64,000 nucleotides of DNA, taken from positions 1 to 64,000 of the forward strand of contig JAFGOZ010000720.1 in assembly GCA_016926235.1 (NCBI GenBank), given 5' to 3'. The stretch is from Bacteroidales bacterium (GTDB lineage: Bacteria > Bacteroidota > Bacteroidia > Bacteroidales > UBA10428). The notes under the pieces were generated by a model. That model worked only from the letters and a program-made list of their open reading frames with translations. It was not told the DNA's origin and made no database searches. The position numbers were made by a program, and so were the translations under genes. Below are positions 15 to 57,853 of the stretch, piece after piece. The first letter of the stretch is position 1. Each line of letters starts with the position of its first letter.

Positions 15-150
15 GCCAGCAGGTAACAATGTATAAAAATAATAGCCGAGATATCAGTAGATTCAAGGGTTTTAGCTCGCTTCAATTTTCTTGCAACTTA
101 ACAGGAAAGTGCCACACAATCGGCTACTATTCTTATACTGAACGTTGGCA
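15..150 (+). repeat. attC-like imperfect hairpin upstream of a lone lipoprotein gene
   Basis: The left arm at about 15-52 and the right arm at about 118-150 are imperfect reverse complements; over the best 19 bp (31-49 against 121-139) 17 positions pair. The outer right end reads ACGTTGGCAAC, just ahead of the next gene, and the left end starts GCC..TAAC. Long imperfect hairpins with such ends, lying directly before a single ORF, resemble integron attC sites. The terminal heptamer GTTGGCA does not fit the strict GTTRRRY consensus, so the attC identity is inference. Confidence 0.5.
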
Positions 151-169
151 ACCATAAAAAAAAGGCACC

Positions 170-838
170 ATGAAAATAAAAAAAACACTTATTTTGGTAT
201 TTATAATCCTTCTATTACCAAATTGTAATAAATCTGAACAAGCAGTAATAAAGGAGTTCGAAAATGTTATGGGTGAAACTGAAACACAATACCTCAATGA
301 AATAGTTGAGGATTTTGAATTATATCTTGAAGCAAATTACGGTGATAAGGATATTGAATCAAAATATACATTTTTCTTAAATGATTTATCTAAAAATGAG
401 CTTAATGAAAATTGGCAATTTGATTCTTTAAAGTTTTTGAAATATAAAAACAGCAATCTTTTTGCAAAATATGATACCGTTTACGCGGATACTGCATGGT
501 ATAGTGCTAATATGATTAACTATATGTGGGAAAACGATGATTTAATTCAAGCAGAAATAATTATAAGCAAGAGGGATAGACCATTAAATATTGATTCTTT
601 AATACAAGATATAAAATCAACTCCATTCCTTAGACAAGTCAGTGAATGTGGATTTTATGCTGCAATTGATTCGGTTTCTGCTTGTGATTCACTAGTCAAT
701 ATTATAAATGAATTTAAGCATATGGGAGGTAATGATCTAAGATTTAGGATAGCAAATAAAATATTTCAGTTTAATCCTGATTATTCAGATTATTTTGTTA
801 AAAGAATAGTAGCGATAGAAACAGCAGATTTTGAATAA
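170..838 (+). CDS. hypothetical lipoprotein (cassette-like gene)
   Basis: This 222-residue protein starts with a lipoprotein signal: basic MKIKK, a hydrophobic stretch and LLPNC, with the acylated cysteine at residue 19. The remainder is acidic and rich in Lys, Asn and Asp, with no domain I recognise; a pair of cysteines lies near residues 160-173. It is probably anchored on the outer or inner membrane facing the periplasm. It has no co-directional partner. A hairpin ends about 20 bp before the start codon and another attC-like element begins about 7 bp after the stop codon, so it has the layout of a one-gene integron-type cassette. Function is unknown. Confidence 0.75.
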   Translation: MKIKKTLILVFIILLLPNCNKSEQAVIKEFENVMGETETQYLNEIVEDFELYLEANYGDKDIESKYTFFLNDLSKNELNENWQFDSLKFLKYKNSNLFAKYDTVYADTAWYSANMINYMWENDDLIQAEIIISKRDRPLNIDSLIQDIKSTPFLRQVSECGFYAAIDSVSACDSLVNIINEFKHMGGNDLRFRIANKIFQFNPDYSDYFVKRIVAIETADFE

Positions 839-844
839 ATTACG

Positions 845-964
845 GTTGCCAACAGGCCAATAAAATCAAGCCGTTCAAGCGTTTAATAACGAAGTGTATC
901 TCGACTCCGCTTCTCGGTGACCGACATGAAAGCGACATTGCGTAAAATAAAAAAAGCAGTACAT
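845..964 (+). repeat. attC-like repeat, right arm missing (copy B)
   Basis: This block matches the minus-strand element at 56190-56323 (copy A). Both share GCCAACAGGCC or GCCCAACAGGCC followed by AATAAAATCAAGCCGTTC, then GCGTTT, TAACGAA, ACATGA, CATT-CGTAAA and AGTACATT in the same order. Copy B has about 25 extra bases in the middle (near 897-923), and I cannot find the closing right arm that copy A has. It lies immediately after the stop codon of the preceding lipoprotein gene. It may be a decayed cassette recombination site. Confidence 0.5.
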
Positions 965-1016
965 TATTGATATGAAATAATGACCTTTGATGAATTATAC
1001 ATAACCTGCATTCTAT

Positions 1017-34471: not shown

Positions 34472-35797
34472 CTATTTTACTGTCTTATTTTCTCTAATCA
34501 GTTTTAATGTATATTCCAATGCATAGTCCTTATCATTTAGCAAATCCTCCAATGATGGAGTTACTATATAATCAGGGATAACTCCGTTCACAGTATCATT
34601 GTTATTACATGGCATGTAAACTATTACAAGACTGGTGTAACAAACAAGTTTTGTGTTTGTTAATGTAAATCGGTTCAGATCCCCATTGCTTAATAATGGT
34701 TGGCCTGTCTCTTCTCCTACAATAATGGCATTATTGTAACATTTTGCAGCTGCAGGAAAGCAGGTACCGGTAGAATATGACAATGGCCCTGTGAGTATAT
34801 AGGTGGTTCCCTTAAAACTGTTGTTTTGAGAGCTGTGAGTTGGAATTTCCTGGACAAAATATCCATTTTTAATGTAACCTTCTGATTTTTTACTTTCGAT
34901 AAAATCTGCTGTCAAGGGACTTATTCTTGTCATTTTTTTCTCAAACATACAATATGGTTTGTCAGCAAAATAAGCCATTAAGGAATCTGCGAGGTCAGTA
35001 AAACCTCCACCTCTTTGATTATCGATGATAAGGTATTTTATTTCTTTTTCGGAAATTAAATTGAATACGGAATCCATAAAATGCATAAAATCTTTAGGTG
35101 GCTTAAAACTCCTTTTATAGATATAGGCTATATCATCATCATAAAATCGCAACTCAAATTTTGGTTTTACAGCTTCCCTAAAGTCGTTCCATTTAGCCCC
35201 TTTTACTTTAAAATCCTGATTATTAACCACAATGTTGAATTCGGAAAATGAGCCATAGATAAGTTGGTAATAAATATGAAACTGGTATTCAAGCGATTTT
35301 ATTTTGTATGATTCTTTTTCACCGTGTAAATAACGGGTTAGATTTTTTATGATTACTTGTGCGGGAACACCGTTTATTTATTCTATAACAGAGCCTTTTG
35401 AAAGTATTATATTATCAGAAAGATTTTCCTTTATATACAGAATTCCATTATAAATAACTACTTTAAAAGGGAGAAACGGACTATCCAATTTGGGGTAAAC
35501 TTCTCCGTTATATGTAAATGTTGTATGCCCGTCGATAGAGATAATCGGTTGCATAATTCTGAACAGGTCCAGCGCTGACATTGGATCATTAATTGTCTTT
35601 TTTATACTGTCAATCTTGTTTTGAATATTATTTTTTTCATAAAAATCAATATATGTAGGATGATATTCCTTCATTTTTGAAATCAATGTATCAATATCTG
35701 CTTTTATAAGTGATGGTTCAAAAAGCTCTATTATGTCTTTTTGTCCAAAAATGAATGTTGGAATCATCAAAATCAATGGAATAAGTAGTTTTTTCAT
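34472..35797 (-). pseudogene. S41-family peptidase interrupted by one in-frame stop
   Basis: Reading from the ATG at 35797, 139 residues (signal peptide MKKLLIPLILMIPTFIFG, then the N-terminal part of an S41 protease) end in a TAA at 35378-35380. The same frame continues without a shift (INGVPAQVIIKNL ...) to 34472, giving 442 codons in total. The second part holds the S41 core: RGGGF, GPLSYSTGT with the catalytic Ser region and a GEETGQP stretch. The lost residue is in the PDZ-like 'GSVIE*INGVPA' loop, so a single base change (for example from TCA or AAA) can explain it. It is either a recent nonsense mutation, a read-through stop or a sequencing error. Confidence 0.85.
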
Positions 35798-51999: not shown

Positions 52000-52135
52000 G
52001 TTAGCCATTATTTATTGGCTTTTAGCGGGCCTCTTGTGTTTAGGATACTTCTTTTTCTCAATTTACGATAATGTCTCTCTCATGTTCATTATACCGTTAA
52101 AAAACGCTGGTACGACTTGTTTTTATGTCCCAGTT
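52000..52135 (-). repeat. attC-like repeat after a lipoprotein gene (copy C)
   Basis: This element lies just after the stop codon (minus strand) of the lipoprotein gene at 52186-52704. Its central 75 bp aligns with copy A (56220-56310) with about 70% identity by eye: shared CAATTTACG/GATTTACG, AATGT..CTCTCATGT, CCGTTAA/TCGTTAA, AACGC and ACTTG/GCTTG. The arms pair more weakly than in copy A. On the minus strand the far end reads GGCCCGC..AGCC..GGCTAAC. It is the third member of the same repeat family. Confidence 0.5.
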
Positions 52136-52185
52136 AATACATTTTTAAAAAACAAAAGGCTGATTCACAAAAAGAACAAATTTAC

Positions 52186-52704
52186 CTATTCTAAAATTGG
52201 TATCCAGGATATTAATTCATCACAATATGATATGGAGGTAACTTTCCAGTAGTTGTTTCTATTTATAGGAATAACTGTCGAACCAGGTACAAAATTTACC
52301 ATACCCACAATTGTTGACGGATTACTTGTACTATCTGAATAAATGTAACCTTGAATAGTTCCATAGTTAGTACTACTTGAATATTGAACAGATAAAAAAC
52401 CATCCGTGCTTGCTTGATAAATTTCTCCGGCAATAAAATCTGACTGTGCTTCACCCAAAGCTAAGGTTCCAACAACATTACATATAAATTCAGAATTTTG
52501 AATTTCAGTAGAGTCTAAGAGATTATTCCTATTGATATCAATTCCTGATTCAATTTTATAACCTCCAGAATTACAGTTCACTCCAGCTAATTCCTGTTTA
52601 ATATTGATCAAACTTGTTAAGCCATCATTTACATCCTTTTCGCAGGATACCATAACGATTAATGAATAAATGCATAATGAAAATGAAAGAGTTTTAGATT
52701 TCAT
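52186..52704 (-). CDS. lipoprotein with a DUF7151-like module (cassette gene)
   Basis: The reading frame is open to 52767, but the ATG at 52704 begins the true lipoprotein signal (MKSKTLSFSLCIYSLIVMVSC, acylated Cys21). The following stretch NCNSGGYKIESGIDINRNN..LDSTEI and FICN matches the short DUF7151-type motif 'GGxxIxxGxDxNxNxxLDxxEI', often repeated in surface proteins. The C-terminal half (FIAGEIYQASTDGFLSV ... GTIQGYIYSD) looks beta-rich. The gene lies between two attC-like hairpins and is alone on its strand as a unit, so it is a candidate cassette. Function unknown. Confidence 0.7.
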   Translation of the reverse strand: MKSKTLSFSLCIYSLIVMVSCEKDVNDGLTSLINIKQELAGVNCNSGGYKIESGIDINRNNLLDSTEIQNSEFICNVVGTLALGEAQSDFIAGEIYQASTDGFLSVQYSSSTNYGTIQGYIYSDSTSNPSTIVGMVNFVPGSTVIPINRNNYWKVTSISYCDELISWIPILE

Positions 52705-52778
52705 AATTATTGGTTTTTCATTAAAAGTAAGTTTATATTTTGAACCCGTTAAATTCAAATTGCACAAATTTATTAATT

Positions 52779-52910
52779 GCCCACGTTGAGTGTATGATTT
52801 CGTAAGGGATTGCGGGCTTCAAACTTATCAAGATACCACTCAAAATTGATGCGGGCGATAATGCTCGAAAACCTCTGAAACCCTTATGCTCTATACACAT
52901 TATTAGCGGC
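52779..52910 (-). repeat. attC-like imperfect hairpin between two cassette-like blocks (copy D)
   Basis: The left arm (52779-52811: GCCCACGTTGAG, TGTAT, CGTAAGGGATT) pairs with the right arm (52878-52910: AAACCCTTATG, ATACACA, TTAGCGGC). On the minus strand it opens GCCGCTAAT and closes ACGTGGGC, framing roughly 66 bases of loop. It starts 10 bases past the stop codon of the DUF4249 gene. This looks like a folded attC site, although the end heptamers only partly fit the consensus. Its sequence differs from copies A-C, so it is a second subtype. Confidence 0.5.
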
Positions 52911-52920
52911 AGTTGATGCT

Positions 52921-53868
52921 TTAATTCAAGTCATATTTCAATAAATCCTCTATTATTATTTCTTTTTTTAATAAATCAGAGACGTAAAAAAATCCTGCTC
53001 CTCCCTCACTTACATTGGTTGGCAAGTTTCCTGAAATTGTTGCAAATGTACTTTCTTTCCAGTCTGTTTCGTTAAATCCTTGGTGCAGATATGCATAGTA
53101 ATTATCTGATATAGTTTGCAAAATTGTCACCACTGTATCTTTAACCGAATCCTCTCCACCAACAAAATGTGTATAGTAGTTTATATTGGCAAAAACACCT
53201 TGTACATCAGCAAATTGATGAACATAGCTTTTAGCATTAATATTTAAGTAATCTAATGTATCTGATACACTCTTTTTTCTATCCCACAGATAAATACATG
53301 AGTTAGGAAAACCGAAATGATGCTTTTTTACTGATAAATCAAGTGTGGCTTGTACTAAATCGCCATTATCATTAGTATAATATTCGCTTGAGTTTTCGCC
53401 TTGATAGGGCAAAGGTATTTCGTTATAATCAAAATCCTTTGCCACAGGAGCAATGTCGGTAGCTGTATAAATTTCATGATTATATTCAACATGTAAAACA
53501 TATTCCTGGCCTGCAATTGCACTAAACTTTTTTATCGATTGATAATATGGCATTTCTAACTCTATATATTGTTGACTATATTCATTCCAGGAGTATTCTA
53601 CTATTTCGTATCGGAAAGTATCCATATCGGACACAACAAAAACATTTGCGTCTACTATTGGTTCCGATTTGGTTTTATCAATAAAACTACCGGGTTTTAT
53701 CAGATATATGCGATGGTTTATATATTGAGATGAAATGCCACCATTAATAAATAGTTTAATATTATGATTATCTGTTCCGTAATTAAAATCATCAATATTG
53801 TAATAATCCCAGGTTTCGCATGATAACAGCGTAACAATTAATATAAATAAAGATATTATTTTTCTCAT
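52921..53868 (-). CDS. DUF4249 lipoprotein
   Basis: The 315-residue protein has a lipoprotein signal (IVTLLSC, acylated Cys17) and a beta-rich body in which DUF4249 features appear: NIKLFINGGISSQ, PIVDANVFVVSD, YVLHVEYN, and YTATDIAPVA around 130. DUF4249 proteins are nearly always encoded next to a carboxypeptidase-regulatory TonB receptor, as here: the receptor gene stops 4 bp upstream. The pair probably forms a surface complex for capturing or exporting a ligand; in some Bacteroidota it relates to peptide or metal uptake, but nothing here names the ligand. Both genes lie between attC-like hairpins. Confidence 0.85.
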   Translation of the reverse strand: MRKIISLFILIVTLLSCETWDYYNIDDFNYGTDNHNIKLFINGGISSQYINHRIYLIKPGSFIDKTKSEPIVDANVFVVSDMDTFRYEIVEYSWNEYSQQYIELEMPYYQSIKKFSAIAGQEYVLHVEYNHEIYTATDIAPVAKDFDYNEIPLPYQGENSSEYYTNDNGDLVQATLDLSVKKHHFGFPNSCIYLWDRKKSVSDTLDYLNINAKSYVHQFADVQGVFANINYYTHFVGGEDSVKDTVVTILQTISDNYYAYLHQGFNETDWKESTFATISGNLPTNVSEGGAGFFYVSDLLKKEIIIEDLLKYDLN

Positions 53869-53872
53869 CCTG

Positions 53873-56137
53873 TTAAAACTTAAAGTTATACGAAATATAA
53901 GGTATCATACGATAAAGGGTATAAACATAAACTGTTTCATTGTATCCTTGTGCAAAATTTACCCCAATTGGATTAAACTTATTATAGGCATTATAAACAC
54001 CTGCTGACCATGTTCCCTTCCATCTTTTGTCATTTTCTTTTGGATACCAGAAAAAAGATAAATCCAATCTGTGATAAACAGGGAAGCGGCCGCTGTTGCG
54101 CAATGCATATAAGTATTGACCATTAGCATAACCTACAGGCAGCGTAAGTACAAATCCTGAATGTACATTGAAAAAAGCACTGATTCCAATGCGTTTAACT
54201 GGTTTATATATTGCAGTTATTTTAAAATCATGTGGAATATCGTGTAAAGCCGGGTATTCCTTATCGCTGTTAACACCATGAATTTTATACAACACTCTTG
54301 AGAAAGTGTAGGAAGCATCTATGTCTATTTTTGTTCTTTTATATTTGGCTAGTAATGTTATACCGTAAGCTGTTCCGTTTCCTGTCCGTATTTGAGACTC
54401 TATGTACGGATAGTTTATTAACTGTGCCCTTTCAATATAATCACAGATGTTGTACATTTTCTTGTAGTATCCTTCTGCAGACAGGCTCAGTTCGCTATTT
54501 GACTTTAAAAAGTAATTAACCGAAATAATATCAGCATGAAGTGGTTTTATGTTTTTATTTGCAGGCATCCATGTTTGTATAGATGTATATGAAAATAAGC
54601 TGTTTTGCAATACCTGAGAGAATTGCGATGTGCGAGCATATGATAACTTTATTACTTGCGATAAAGTTGGTCTTAAATTTATTGTTATCCGGGGTTCTAA
54701 CGAATGGTACGAGTTATAAATACCGTTATCATTTGTATTGCTTCCAGTGGGGCTGTAATCCGAATATGTATACCACTCTGCTTTTCCAGTATTTTGAAAT
54801 ATAGTGTATCTGATTCCATAATTTAATCCTAACCAATGTGTTAGATTATAATCATTAAGAATATAGCCTGAGTTCTCTATAGCATTTACCCTGAATATGC
54901 TTTGTTCCGGTATCCCATTTTCGCCAGGTTTGTATTTGTGATAAATAGATTCTGTCCCGAAATTAATTTTATTAGATTTTGATATATACCATGTAAAATT
55001 CAACTTTGCAAAAATATCCTCAACACCTGTAAACCAACTGTAATTTTTATTCTCATTCACAAAATCCATATTGTTTTTATAGTCGCTATAGATTGTGGAG
55101 AAATTCATAAATAATTTTTGAGAAAGAATGCAATTCCAGCGAAAGGTTATTGTTGTATTTCCCCAATTATTAATGTAATCGTTATCGGACATAATTTTAT
55201 CGTTTCCATTGTAGAAAGAAAAAAATATGCGGTTTTTACTATTAATGTTCCAGTTAATCTTGGCATTAATATCATAAAACTGGGGTACATAATACACGCC
55301 ATCATCTTCAGGATTTTGGAATAAGTCTCTTATACTGCGACGTATCGCTAACAAATAAGAAGCAGTATCTTTTTTTATTGGCCCGTCAAATGCCAAACGA
55401 GATGTTAATGTACCTATCCCTCCGGACAAGCGATGGGTGTGTTTATCGCCATCGTTCATTTGACTATTTATCACAGATGATAATCCTCCTCCAAATTGTG
55501 CAGGAATAGCCCCTTTATAAAACTCAACGTTCTTAATAGCATCAGGATTAAAAACTGATACTAAGCCAAACAGGTGCGATGGATTATAAACGGGTGCATC
55601 GTCAATTAACATTAGGTTTTGGTCTGTATTCCCTCCTTGAACAAACATACCCGATGAACCTTCTCCAAGTGTTGTTACACCAGCTTTTAGCTGTAATACT
55701 TTAATAACATCTGTTTCACCGAAAGCAATTGGCGCAGTTTCAATGTCTTTTGGCGTAAGAATATTTATGTTTGAAATATTAGTGTTTATTGGATTATCAT
55801 GACTTTTACCTACAACAACTACTTCATCCAATTTAAGCTCCTGAGGTTTTAGTTTAATATTTAACTCCGTAGAAGTTAAGCTGTTAATCACTATTCTGTG
55901 AGGTTGATATCCAATATATGAGACTTCAATCTCGGTTGGTATTTTATCTAAGGGAATAGAATAATATCCATATTGGTTAGTAGTGATTCCCAATTCTGAA
56001 TTTAAGTCATAAATTGTAGCTCCAATTAAAATTTCTCCTGTTGTTTTATCACTAACATATCCACTTATCACTTTTTGTTGCGTGTAAGCATACGATGATA
56101 AAAGAAAAATCAATGGAATAATCAGTGTTTTTTTCAT
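53873..56137 (-). CDS. TonB-dependent receptor with carboxypeptidase-regulatory domain
   Basis: The 754-residue outer-membrane receptor has a signal peptide (MKKTLIIPLIFLLSSYAYT), a carboxypeptidase-regulatory-like domain (about 22-105, GYVSDKTTGEILIGATIYD), a plug domain (about 115-230, with FVQGGNTDQNLMLIDDAPVYNPSHLFG) and a barrel ending YNFKF. These features match the DUF4249-partnered TonB receptors, and the partner gene follows 4 bp downstream. It starts 52 bp after an attC-like hairpin, so the receptor and DUF4249 together look like a two-gene cassette of about 3.2 kb, large for an integron. Ligand is unknown. Confidence 0.9.
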   Translation of the reverse strand: MKKTLIIPLIFLLSSYAYTQQKVISGYVSDKTTGEILIGATIYDLNSELGITTNQYGYYSIPLDKIPTEIEVSYIGYQPHRIVINSLTSTELNIKLKPQELKLDEVVVVGKSHDNPINTNISNINILTPKDIETAPIAFGETDVIKVLQLKAGVTTLGEGSSGMFVQGGNTDQNLMLIDDAPVYNPSHLFGLVSVFNPDAIKNVEFYKGAIPAQFGGGLSSVINSQMNDGDKHTHRLSGGIGTLTSRLAFDGPIKKDTASYLLAIRRSIRDLFQNPEDDGVYYVPQFYDINAKINWNINSKNRIFFSFYNGNDKIMSDNDYINNWGNTTITFRWNCILSQKLFMNFSTIYSDYKNNMDFVNENKNYSWFTGVEDIFAKLNFTWYISKSNKINFGTESIYHKYKPGENGIPEQSIFRVNAIENSGYILNDYNLTHWLGLNYGIRYTIFQNTGKAEWYTYSDYSPTGSNTNDNGIYNSYHSLEPRITINLRPTLSQVIKLSYARTSQFSQVLQNSLFSYTSIQTWMPANKNIKPLHADIISVNYFLKSNSELSLSAEGYYKKMYNICDYIERAQLINYPYIESQIRTGNGTAYGITLLAKYKRTKIDIDASYTFSRVLYKIHGVNSDKEYPALHDIPHDFKITAIYKPVKRIGISAFFNVHSGFVLTLPVGYANGQYLYALRNSGRFPVYHRLDLSFFWYPKENDKRWKGTWSAGVYNAYNKFNPIGVNFAQGYNETVYVYTLYRMIPYISYNFKF

Positions 56138-56189
56138 CTTTTTTTAACTGTATCAATGTTTTAGGTTTCTGTATGTCTCTGACCCAATT

Positions 56190-56323
56190 GCCGCTAACGA
56201 CAGCAATAAAAGCTGGCCGTTTCTCAAATGTACTACTTTTTGTTGATTTACGTAATGTTGCTCTCATGTGTTTCAATTCGTTAAGAAACGCGTGAACGGC
56301 TTGATTTTATTGGCCTGTTGGGC
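56190..56323 (-). repeat. attC-like imperfect hairpin with GCCCAAC core (copy A)
   Basis: On the minus strand the element opens GCCCAAC (56323-56317), which fits the attC core RYYYAAC, directly after the TAG of the DUF6602 gene. The outer arms pair imperfectly: GCCCAACAGGCC..AATAAAATCAAGCCGTTC against its complement in GCCGCTAACGACAGC..AATAAAAGCTGGCCG, with the 134-bp element closing at GTTAGCGGC. The central part carries the ACATGAGAGCAACATTACG block shared with copies B and C. It is the best-formed of the sites here. Confidence 0.65.
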
Positions 56324-57094
56324 CTAGTTGTCTTTGTTCAACATTTTGCTAATTAATTCTTGATCTCTTATATAAATACTTAACCAATCCTTATGTTCTT
56401 CACTTAAAGCATATGGTTTTTTATTTGACATGGTTCTAATATTATCCAAAAATACAGCTAAGAATCTTTTAGTTTCTTCAAATGTTTTTGGATCATGATA
56501 ACATATAGACCAATCCTTTATTTTAGATTTCAACCATGTGTATTTTCCAACTAAACATATGCTGAATTGATTATTTATATTCTTATTTAACCAATTTACT
56601 CCATTTGGATCTCGAATTTCATTTGATCCAATACCATAAAATCCTATTAATCCACATAATGGCTTAAATTCATCCTTTTTATATAAATTATATTCTCTAC
56701 TGCATATATTATTTCTTAGGTACATAAATTTATTTTCAGTTTCAGTAATAGCTGTTTTTGTCAATTTACTCTTTACTTCTATTACTCCTAAAACAGATTC
56801 TACCGGATAAACACCTATGTTTTTCTGTTTTATAAAAGGGGGTAGAATTCTCTTATCGTATATTATGATGTCATTCTGATTACTTTGCTTTCCAGCTTGG
56901 TTAATAATAATACCTGTTCCAATGCCAAATTGTTCCGTTAAAAATAAGCTTAACACTTCAGTTACAAAAAGTTCGATTAACTCTCCTTTTGTTAGTTTAT
57001 GATCCAATCGTGATAAAGATTTAACCTTTTCATAAAATCCGCTTATGATAGCAGTTGCGTATTGTTGTATTAGTGTCCTTTGCATTTTATTCAA
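56324..57094 (-). CDS. DUF6602-type protein, possible PD-(D/E)XK nuclease (cassette gene)
   Basis: The 256-residue protein fits DUF6602: an N-terminal helical part, then SNQNDIIIYD, VYPVESVLGVIEVKSKL and a C-terminal helical region. The Asp in NDIIIYD and Glu-x-Lys in IEVKS match the D...ExK core of restriction-endonuclease-like folds, so DNA cleavage or binding is a reasonable inference; a defence role is speculative. Its start codon lies 4 bases after the box GTTGGGC... (57105-57099) and its stop codon abuts GCCCAAC, an arrangement expected of an integron cassette. No toxin, methylase or helicase lies next to it. Confidence 0.7.
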   Translation of the reverse strand: MNKMQRTLIQQYATAIISGFYEKVKSLSRLDHKLTKGELIELFVTEVLSLFLTEQFGIGTGIIINQAGKQSNQNDIIIYDKRILPPFIKQKNIGVYPVESVLGVIEVKSKLTKTAITETENKFMYLRNNICSREYNLYKKDEFKPLCGLIGFYGIGSNEIRDPNGVNWLNKNINNQFSICLVGKYTWLKSKIKDWSICYHDPKTFEETKRFLAVFLDNIRTMSNKKPYALSEEHKDWLSIYIRDQELISKMLNKDN

Positions 57095-57098
57095 TTAG

Positions 57099-57105
57099 GC
57101 CCAAC
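57099..57105 (-). promoter_or_regulatory. cassette start box GTTGGGC
   Basis: On the minus strand GTTGGGC (57105-57099) fits the attC/attI core GTTRRRY and is followed by CTAATTGAATAAA and the DUF6602 start codon. The upstream arm needed for a full attC hairpin was not found in 57106-57428, so this may be a truncated site or the array's outer border. I call it a candidate recombination core. Confidence 0.4.
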
Positions 57106-57428: not shown

Positions 57429-57458
57429 TTAATGTATTACAGGCAGATTTAATAAGGC

Positions 57459-57752
57459 AGCGATATCCTGCGCTAAAGAATTTTCATCATTCCATGTCGC
57501 AGCAACATGATTCGGTATGGAATTATCATGCTGCCCTGTCGCAGCAACATGCTGCGGTAAGGAATTATCATCATTCCATAGGGAATCATTACAATTCCAT
57601 AGCGCAGCAGCATAATTCGATAAGGAACTGTATTGGTTCCATAGCGCAGTAACATAATTCCAAAGAGAATTGCCTTGCTGCCGTGCCGCAGTATCATGAT
57701 TCCATATTACAGCGTCATGCTGCCATGTAGAATTATCATAATTCCGCAGGGA
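57459..57752. repeat. 21-bp degenerate tandem repeat (14 units)
   Basis: Fourteen consecutive 21-bp units run from 57459 to 57752, alternating between two forms: one like AGCAACATGATTCGGTATGGA (57501-57521) and one like ATTATCATGCTGCCCTGTCGC (57522-57542). The conserved pieces are CAT-ATTCC and A-GGA or GCGC at the unit ends. Read on the minus strand the array stays open in two frames and would encode a 7-residue repeat (NSLWNYV, TALWNQY, NSLPQHV ...), simply because 21 is a multiple of 3. No spacers are present, so this is not CRISPR. Confidence 0.85.
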
Positions 57753-57853
57753 AGAGTGTGGATTTCTGGTGAAAGGGAGGGTTTTCAAGGGGTGTGCAGG
57801 GCTTTTCATATCCCCTGATGGTTCAATCGCATGAGCGGGCAGGGATAAGTAAG

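Follow-up and report, generated by a model that had tools for sequence, protein, structure and literature searches.

Gene content of the locus

The window analysed here is the whole stretch of 64,000 nucleotides taken from a Bacteroidales contig of 64,419 bases. By domain search, its genes include SusC/SusD, hybrid two-component and TonB genes, families that point to a Bacteroidota genome fragment. The region 52000-57105 carries minus-strand gene blocks in the set and order given by the first-pass annotation, which had described them as an integron-like array of cassettes lacking an integrase, that is, a CALIN (clustered attC sites lacking an integrase). The DUF7151, TonB Plug and DUF6602 domains named there were all recovered by domain search; the DUF4249 label attached to 52921-53868 was not, no Pfam family being found for this gene even at E<=5. 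Three sites—j3, j2, and a truncated j1—lie within 52000-57105, each of them 3′ of minus-strand genes (Table 1). The core-like boxes reported at the junctions are present, with GTTGGGC/GCCCAAC at 56317-56323 and 57099-57105, CCGCTAAC at 56191-56198, and ACGTGGGC inside j2. Next to the main array, at 57440-57753, lies a degenerate tandem repeat of families D1 and D2 with a spacing of 21/42 bases. Elsewhere in the window, an S41 peptidase-like gene on the minus strand (34472-35797) may be split into the frames 34472-35230, in which the domain was found, and 35378-35797, and is a possible pseudogene.

Comparison of the sites with the whole window revealed a second array on the plus strand at 18-965, which the first-pass annotation had missed. 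It lies 51 kb from the main array, in the opposite orientation, and comprises the sites S1 and S2 and the gene between them, whose 222-aa lipoprotein-like product has three homologues besides itself. In the S1 stem, two mismatches on the top strand become G-T pairs on the bottom strand. The R″ box at 18-27 belongs to a preceding cassette whose gene falls outside the window. The loop of S2 contains about 23 extra bases relative to j3 (900-923), resembling a small insertion. Box positions in both arrays were set by the analyst from homology and hairpins.

Table 1. Features of the two arrays in window coordinates, with third-position GC content (GC3) set against 32 compared genes
Feature	Position	Strand	Remarks
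attC-like site S1	18..153	+	R″ AGCAGGTAAC at 18-27, 19-nt stem, R′ GTTGGCAACC at 144-153
222-aa lipoprotein-like cassette gene, no confident family	170..838	+	GC3 0.179, below all 32 compared genes
attC-like site S2, 3′-truncated	844..965	+	R″ GGTTGCCAAC at 844-853, then j3-homologous
j1, degenerate 3′-truncated j3-type site	52046..52142	-	R″ ATGTATTAAC at 52133-52142
DUF7151 lipoprotein gene, probable fourth cassette	52186..52767	-	Ends unmatched; GC3 0.216, below all 32 compared genes
attC-like site j2	52775..52911	-	R″ TGCCGCTAAT and R′ GTGGGCAATT, each with a mutated core triplet; 61% similarity with S1
Cassette gene adjoining receptor (family unconfirmed)	52921..53868	-	GC3 0.234, below all 32 compared genes
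TonB-dependent receptor cassette gene	53873..56137	-	CarbopepD_reg_2 + Plug; GC3 0.281, below 29/32 compared genes
attC-like site j3	56189..56326	-	R″ TAGGCCCAAC, stems CAATAAAA and GCCGTT, R′ GTTAGCGGCA
DUF6602 cassette gene, NucC-like PD-(D/E)XK nuclease	56324..57094	-	GC3 0.210, below all 32 compared genes
R′ box GTTGGGCCTA	57096..57105	-	Bounds the DUF6602 cassette on its upstream side; no complete site found beyond it

The genes in both arrays stand apart in composition. The GC3 of the five cassette genes ranges from 0.18 to 0.28 and is lower (one-sided P 1.6e-5) than the mean of 0.334 for the 32 genes used as a comparison set, which are ORFs chosen by the analyst with some short or doubtful ones left out. 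Four of the five lie under the whole comparison set and the fifth under 29 of its members.

Homology and folding of the sites

The sites of the two arrays are related to one another. S2 and j3 are homologous (E 1e-12) and have 27 identical nucleotides in common (AACAGGCCAATAAAATCAAGCCGTTCA); S1 and j2 are homologous at E 2e-4. Homology between j1 and j3 extends over 90 bases (73%, E 1e-11), and j1 therefore looks like a truncated copy of a j3-type site. In j1, j3 and S2, a conserved body continues well past the boxes. The core triplets are intact in S1 and j3 and changed to AAT and GTG in j2, and S2 and j1 keep AAC without an R′ box.

The hairpins that had been reported behind all three gene blocks of the main array fared unequally. 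That of j3 is clear: its folding energy lies at a z-score of -2.4 on the top strand and -2.3 on the bottom strand, and the energy of its arms (-15.9) was equalled by 6 of 2000 shuffles. That of j2 is marginal, with arms equalled by 100 of 2000 shuffles and a minimum free energy over the whole site equalled by 187/200 and 189/200. That of j1 is absent, its 3′ arm being missing: the best candidate was equalled by 182 of 200 shuffles. In the second array, the S1 arms reach -14.9 on the bottom and -13.0 on the top strand (3/2000 shuffles as good), and no 3′ arm was found for S2, the best candidate being equalled by 25/200 shuffles. S1, j3 and j2 contain the unpaired spacer and have bottom-strand arms more stable than those of the top strand, a preference that is not diagnostic, as no more than 6 of the 13 class 1 control sites show it. 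The S1 stem has no extrahelical base.

When all AAC...GTT pairs in the window were scanned, hairpin energy alone was not significant. The arms of j3 and S1 (best and third on their own strands, respectively) were exceeded by a pair at -17.1 that belongs to no site, and the best pair in each of 20 shuffled windows ranged from -12.5 to -17.5. The hairpins by themselves would not have convinced.

Complementarity of the cassette ends

An integron cassette exists as a circle in which R′ pairs with R″; insertion places R′ at the head of the cassette and R″ at its tail. The two halves of any one site in an array therefore stem from different cassettes. Pairing of R′ with R″ is not required within an array, and the lengths given for attC sites range from 57 to 141 bp (PMC5371416).

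Most of the cassettes in the window follow this arrangement. In the lipoprotein, DUF6602 and TonB receptor cassettes, the start of the cassette matches the reverse complement of its end at 10/10, 10/10 and 9/10 positions, respectively. Among the seven flank bases outside the core, agreement is 7/7 in each case (GTTGGCAACC...GGTTGCCAAC, GTTGGGCCTA...TAGGCCCAAC and GTTAGCGGCA...TGCCGCTAAT, respectively), so that three of four cassettes start with the complement of their own R″; in the fourth, the DUF7151 block, the ends agree at 2/7. The R′ and R″ boxes of one and the same site agree at 2/7 flank bases in all three complete sites. In the 20 possible combinations of four R′ and five R″ boxes, a 7/7 agreement occurs exactly three times, each time between the two ends of one cassette. 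As background, 16 of 116,882 GTT-AAC pairs spaced 0.4-3.5 kb apart agree at 7/7, and the choice of GTT triplets upstream of DUF6602 is limited to three.

In class 1 integrons, used as controls, eight neighbour pairs agreed at 7/7 (four pairs), 5/7 (three pairs) and 3/7 (one pair, perhaps not true neighbours), and same-site pairs at 2-5/7. The own-end match is the decisive sign, marking cassettes that entered attC sites as circles, and the class 1 controls largely conform to it. When the cassettes were rejoined as circles by script, j3 gained an R stem of 10 bp and j2 one of 9 bp, with bottom-strand energies of -18.9 (j3) and -8.9 (j2) falling to -25.8 and -16.1 kcal/mol, respectively (top strand of the rejoined circles: -22.8 and -15.5 kcal/mol). 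This gain in stability follows from the end match and therefore illustrates it rather than adding independent evidence.

Searches for attC sites, integrases and related loci

A covariance-model search for attC sites, as suggested for this region in the first-pass annotation, was run with a surrogate model (R1) trained on 13 class 1 sites. Of 21 class 1 candidates, 13 were kept (four near-duplicates and four judged not to be attC were dropped), two of 12 candidates from R388 were added, and two long sites misplaced by the aligner are left out of R1. The model matched none of the sites in the window, its best score there being 9.2 bits and nothing rising above noise. It performs poorly on long sites, missing a 126-nt class 1 site (L018) and giving 14.5 bits (E 0.59) to one of 114 nt (L021) and 22.3 bits to one of 133 nt (L025), so that its failure in the window carries little weight as evidence. 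A rigid 47-column model failed as well. With each training site left out in turn, it scored these sites at 5-62 bits, against 14.0 bits for the real window and 13-29 bits for shuffled windows; it thus separates poorly and could decide little. A strict box scan (7-bp boxes, at most one mismatch) returned seven matches per strand, none of them at j3, j2, j1, S1 or S2, and an Rfam search at gathering scores gave no match.

The claimed absence of an integrase was borne out as far as the window extends. The best tblastn match to IntI1 has an E value of 0.9, and neither an integrase nor a transposase domain was found in 32 scanned proteins, a set smaller than all ORFs of the window, several large ORFs lying outside it. 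No attI site was seen in the window. Outside it, blastn of the sites against plasmids and phages found nothing, and a reading frame running through j3 has no homologue. Exact site patterns gave no match in viral contigs, where a 17-mer returned 12 stretches, none with attC-like surroundings by eye. The site pattern likewise gave no match in genome contigs, a collection in which a CobN protein query returned only four archaeal loci. Five IMG/VR loci around IntI genes (L007-L011) showed few and weak attC candidates and were judged not to be arrays. A further IMG/VR contig encodes an integron-integrase-like protein 59% identical to IntI1 (L012:8001-8948), with neighbours that resemble a transposable phage by eye, from ORFs only.

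The DUF6602 cassette gene

NucC is an effector of CBASS and type III CRISPR systems. The DUF6602 protein has a NucC-like sequence and PD-(D/E)XK fold, with 14-19% identity to solved NucC structures, and DUF6602, annotated as a domain of unknown function, is therefore probably a NucC-family nuclease; such cargo would plausibly be anti-phage. No genes for cyclic-nucleotide synthases or CRISPR effectors were recognised among the scanned proteins between 52186 and 60639, several of which have no family assignment. Homologues of DUF6602 occur in 76 plasmid records, all below 60% identity, and in 3 of 148 archaeal genomes. In viral contigs, a single-sequence search found none and an alignment-based search found two at 27% identity. 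Alignment A2 comprises 22 of the 120 homologues listed, that of the window among them. A distant relative with 27% identity lies on an IMG/VR contig at L014:6001-6684. No literature on DUF6602 was found.

Origin of the arrays

Both clusters are very probably made up of integron gene cassettes inserted by IntI-type recombination, with the integrase not encoded in the window. The integron-cassette reading put forward in the first-pass annotation is upheld, though not in all its details, by the complementarity of own ends, by homologous sites in two arrays 51 kb apart and by the unusual composition of the cargo; the surrogate class 1 model gave no match to the sites. Where a CALIN is defined by two or more attC-type sites spaced under 4 kb (PMC9668308), j3/j2 (3.3 kb) and S1/S2 (0.7 kb) both lie within the limit, the sites having been called by homology and hairpins rather than by an attC finder.

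The conserved body that j1, j3 and S2 share beyond their boxes could also be that of a lineage-specific family of interspersed repeats or terminators located at gene ends and flanking AT-rich genes by chance, and the blindness of the class 1 attC model to the sites and the fact that neither attI nor IntI was seen would agree with such an origin. It is nonetheless unlikely, as a repeat family does not explain why a cassette starts with the reverse complement of its own end, in a sequence that differs from cassette to cassette. Mobile elements bounded by terminal inverted repeats, either transposons or MITEs, might have brought the genes in, which would account for their composition and for the inverted 10-nt ends around the gene blocks; however, these ends differ among blocks (GTTGGCAACC, GTTGGGCCTA and GTTAGCGGCA), having only GTT in common, and no transposase domain occurs in the 32 scanned proteins, part of the ORFs of the window. 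This is the least probable of the explanations weighed here. Genuine cassettes might instead have been moved by a tyrosine recombinase other than IntI that uses folded sites of a similar kind, in line with the position of the sites outside the class 1 model and with the lack of extrahelical bases in S1. Known attC sites, however, have only three nucleotides in common (PMC5371416), and among long class 1 sites, too, the model overlooks one and only just picks up another, so that poor recognition says little. A recombinase of this kind is highly improbable. An origin of the sites by chance was rejected, as was one from a constant-end transposon, an interspersed repeat or a terminator.

If the clusters are integron cassettes, each gene or gene pair would once have been a small circle bearing a folded attC site of its own. 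An integron integrase would have cut G/TT within GTT and inserted the circle, leaving a cassette that starts with TT and the complement of its own R″ and ends in that R″ and its hairpin. Neighbouring cassettes would then form hybrid sites in which R″ and R′ remain unpaired. The recombinase would have been of the IntI type and the bottom strand its substrate. In the most likely history, the integrase would have been encoded elsewhere or since lost, with decay setting in afterwards; the arrays now appear to be static or decaying remnants, since the j2 cores are mutated and the 3′ arms of j1 and S2 are missing. The routes given for the formation of integrase-less clusters include off-target insertion, rearrangement and the loss of intI (PMC8618304), and two small, oppositely oriented arrays with a truncated site at the end of each fit either off-target insertion or the break-up of a larger array.

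Relation to known systems

The locus is best described as a CALIN-like array of integron cassettes in decay, of an ordinary kind but in an uncommon host. If this is right, a NucC-like nuclease and a receptor unit of 3.4 kb would have moved as cassettes. The boundaries were revealed by end complementarity, not by an attC model, which suggests a model-free search for cassettes where attC sites have drifted. As a tentative and rather doubtful extension, some Bacteroidota might carry a lineage-specific integron family whose long attC sites, with a conserved loop and in some cases no extrahelical bases, evade class 1 models, so that cassette traffic in this phylum, with NucC-like nucleases and entire TonB receptor units among the cargo, would be under-counted.

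Genes for IntI have been reported from the Bacteroidetes/Chlorobi group (PMC2426708, 2008), and Bacteroidota are included among the integron-bearing groups (PMC8618304). There are few descriptions of such arrays from the phylum. The IntegronFinder 2.0 paper names one complete Bacteroidetes integron, in Salinibacter ruber M1, and describes the previous survey there as having yielded only integrases without cassettes (PMC9024848). Titles and abstract openings among the matches listed described no such arrays in Bacteroidia. Compared with NucC systems, the DUF6602 cassette has no recognised cyclase or CRISPR gene alongside, and its product shares the low identity to NucC given above. The arrays resemble CALINs in having genes in one direction, hairpin sites with AAC/GTT cores, intact in S1 and j3, own-matching cassette ends and no integrase nearby, and differ in sites that a class 1-trained model misses, in truncated end sites, in the three to four cassettes of the main array and in the Bacteroidota host. 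A further comparison is offered by the sedentary chromosomal integrons of Treponema, with attC sites of 63-132 bp and, in T. phagedenis, integrase-less remnants (PMC3607928). Whereas neither intI nor attI was identified here and the sites are spread over two arrays 51 kb apart, both systems feature long sites (about 135 bp in the window) that are similar to each other within one genome.
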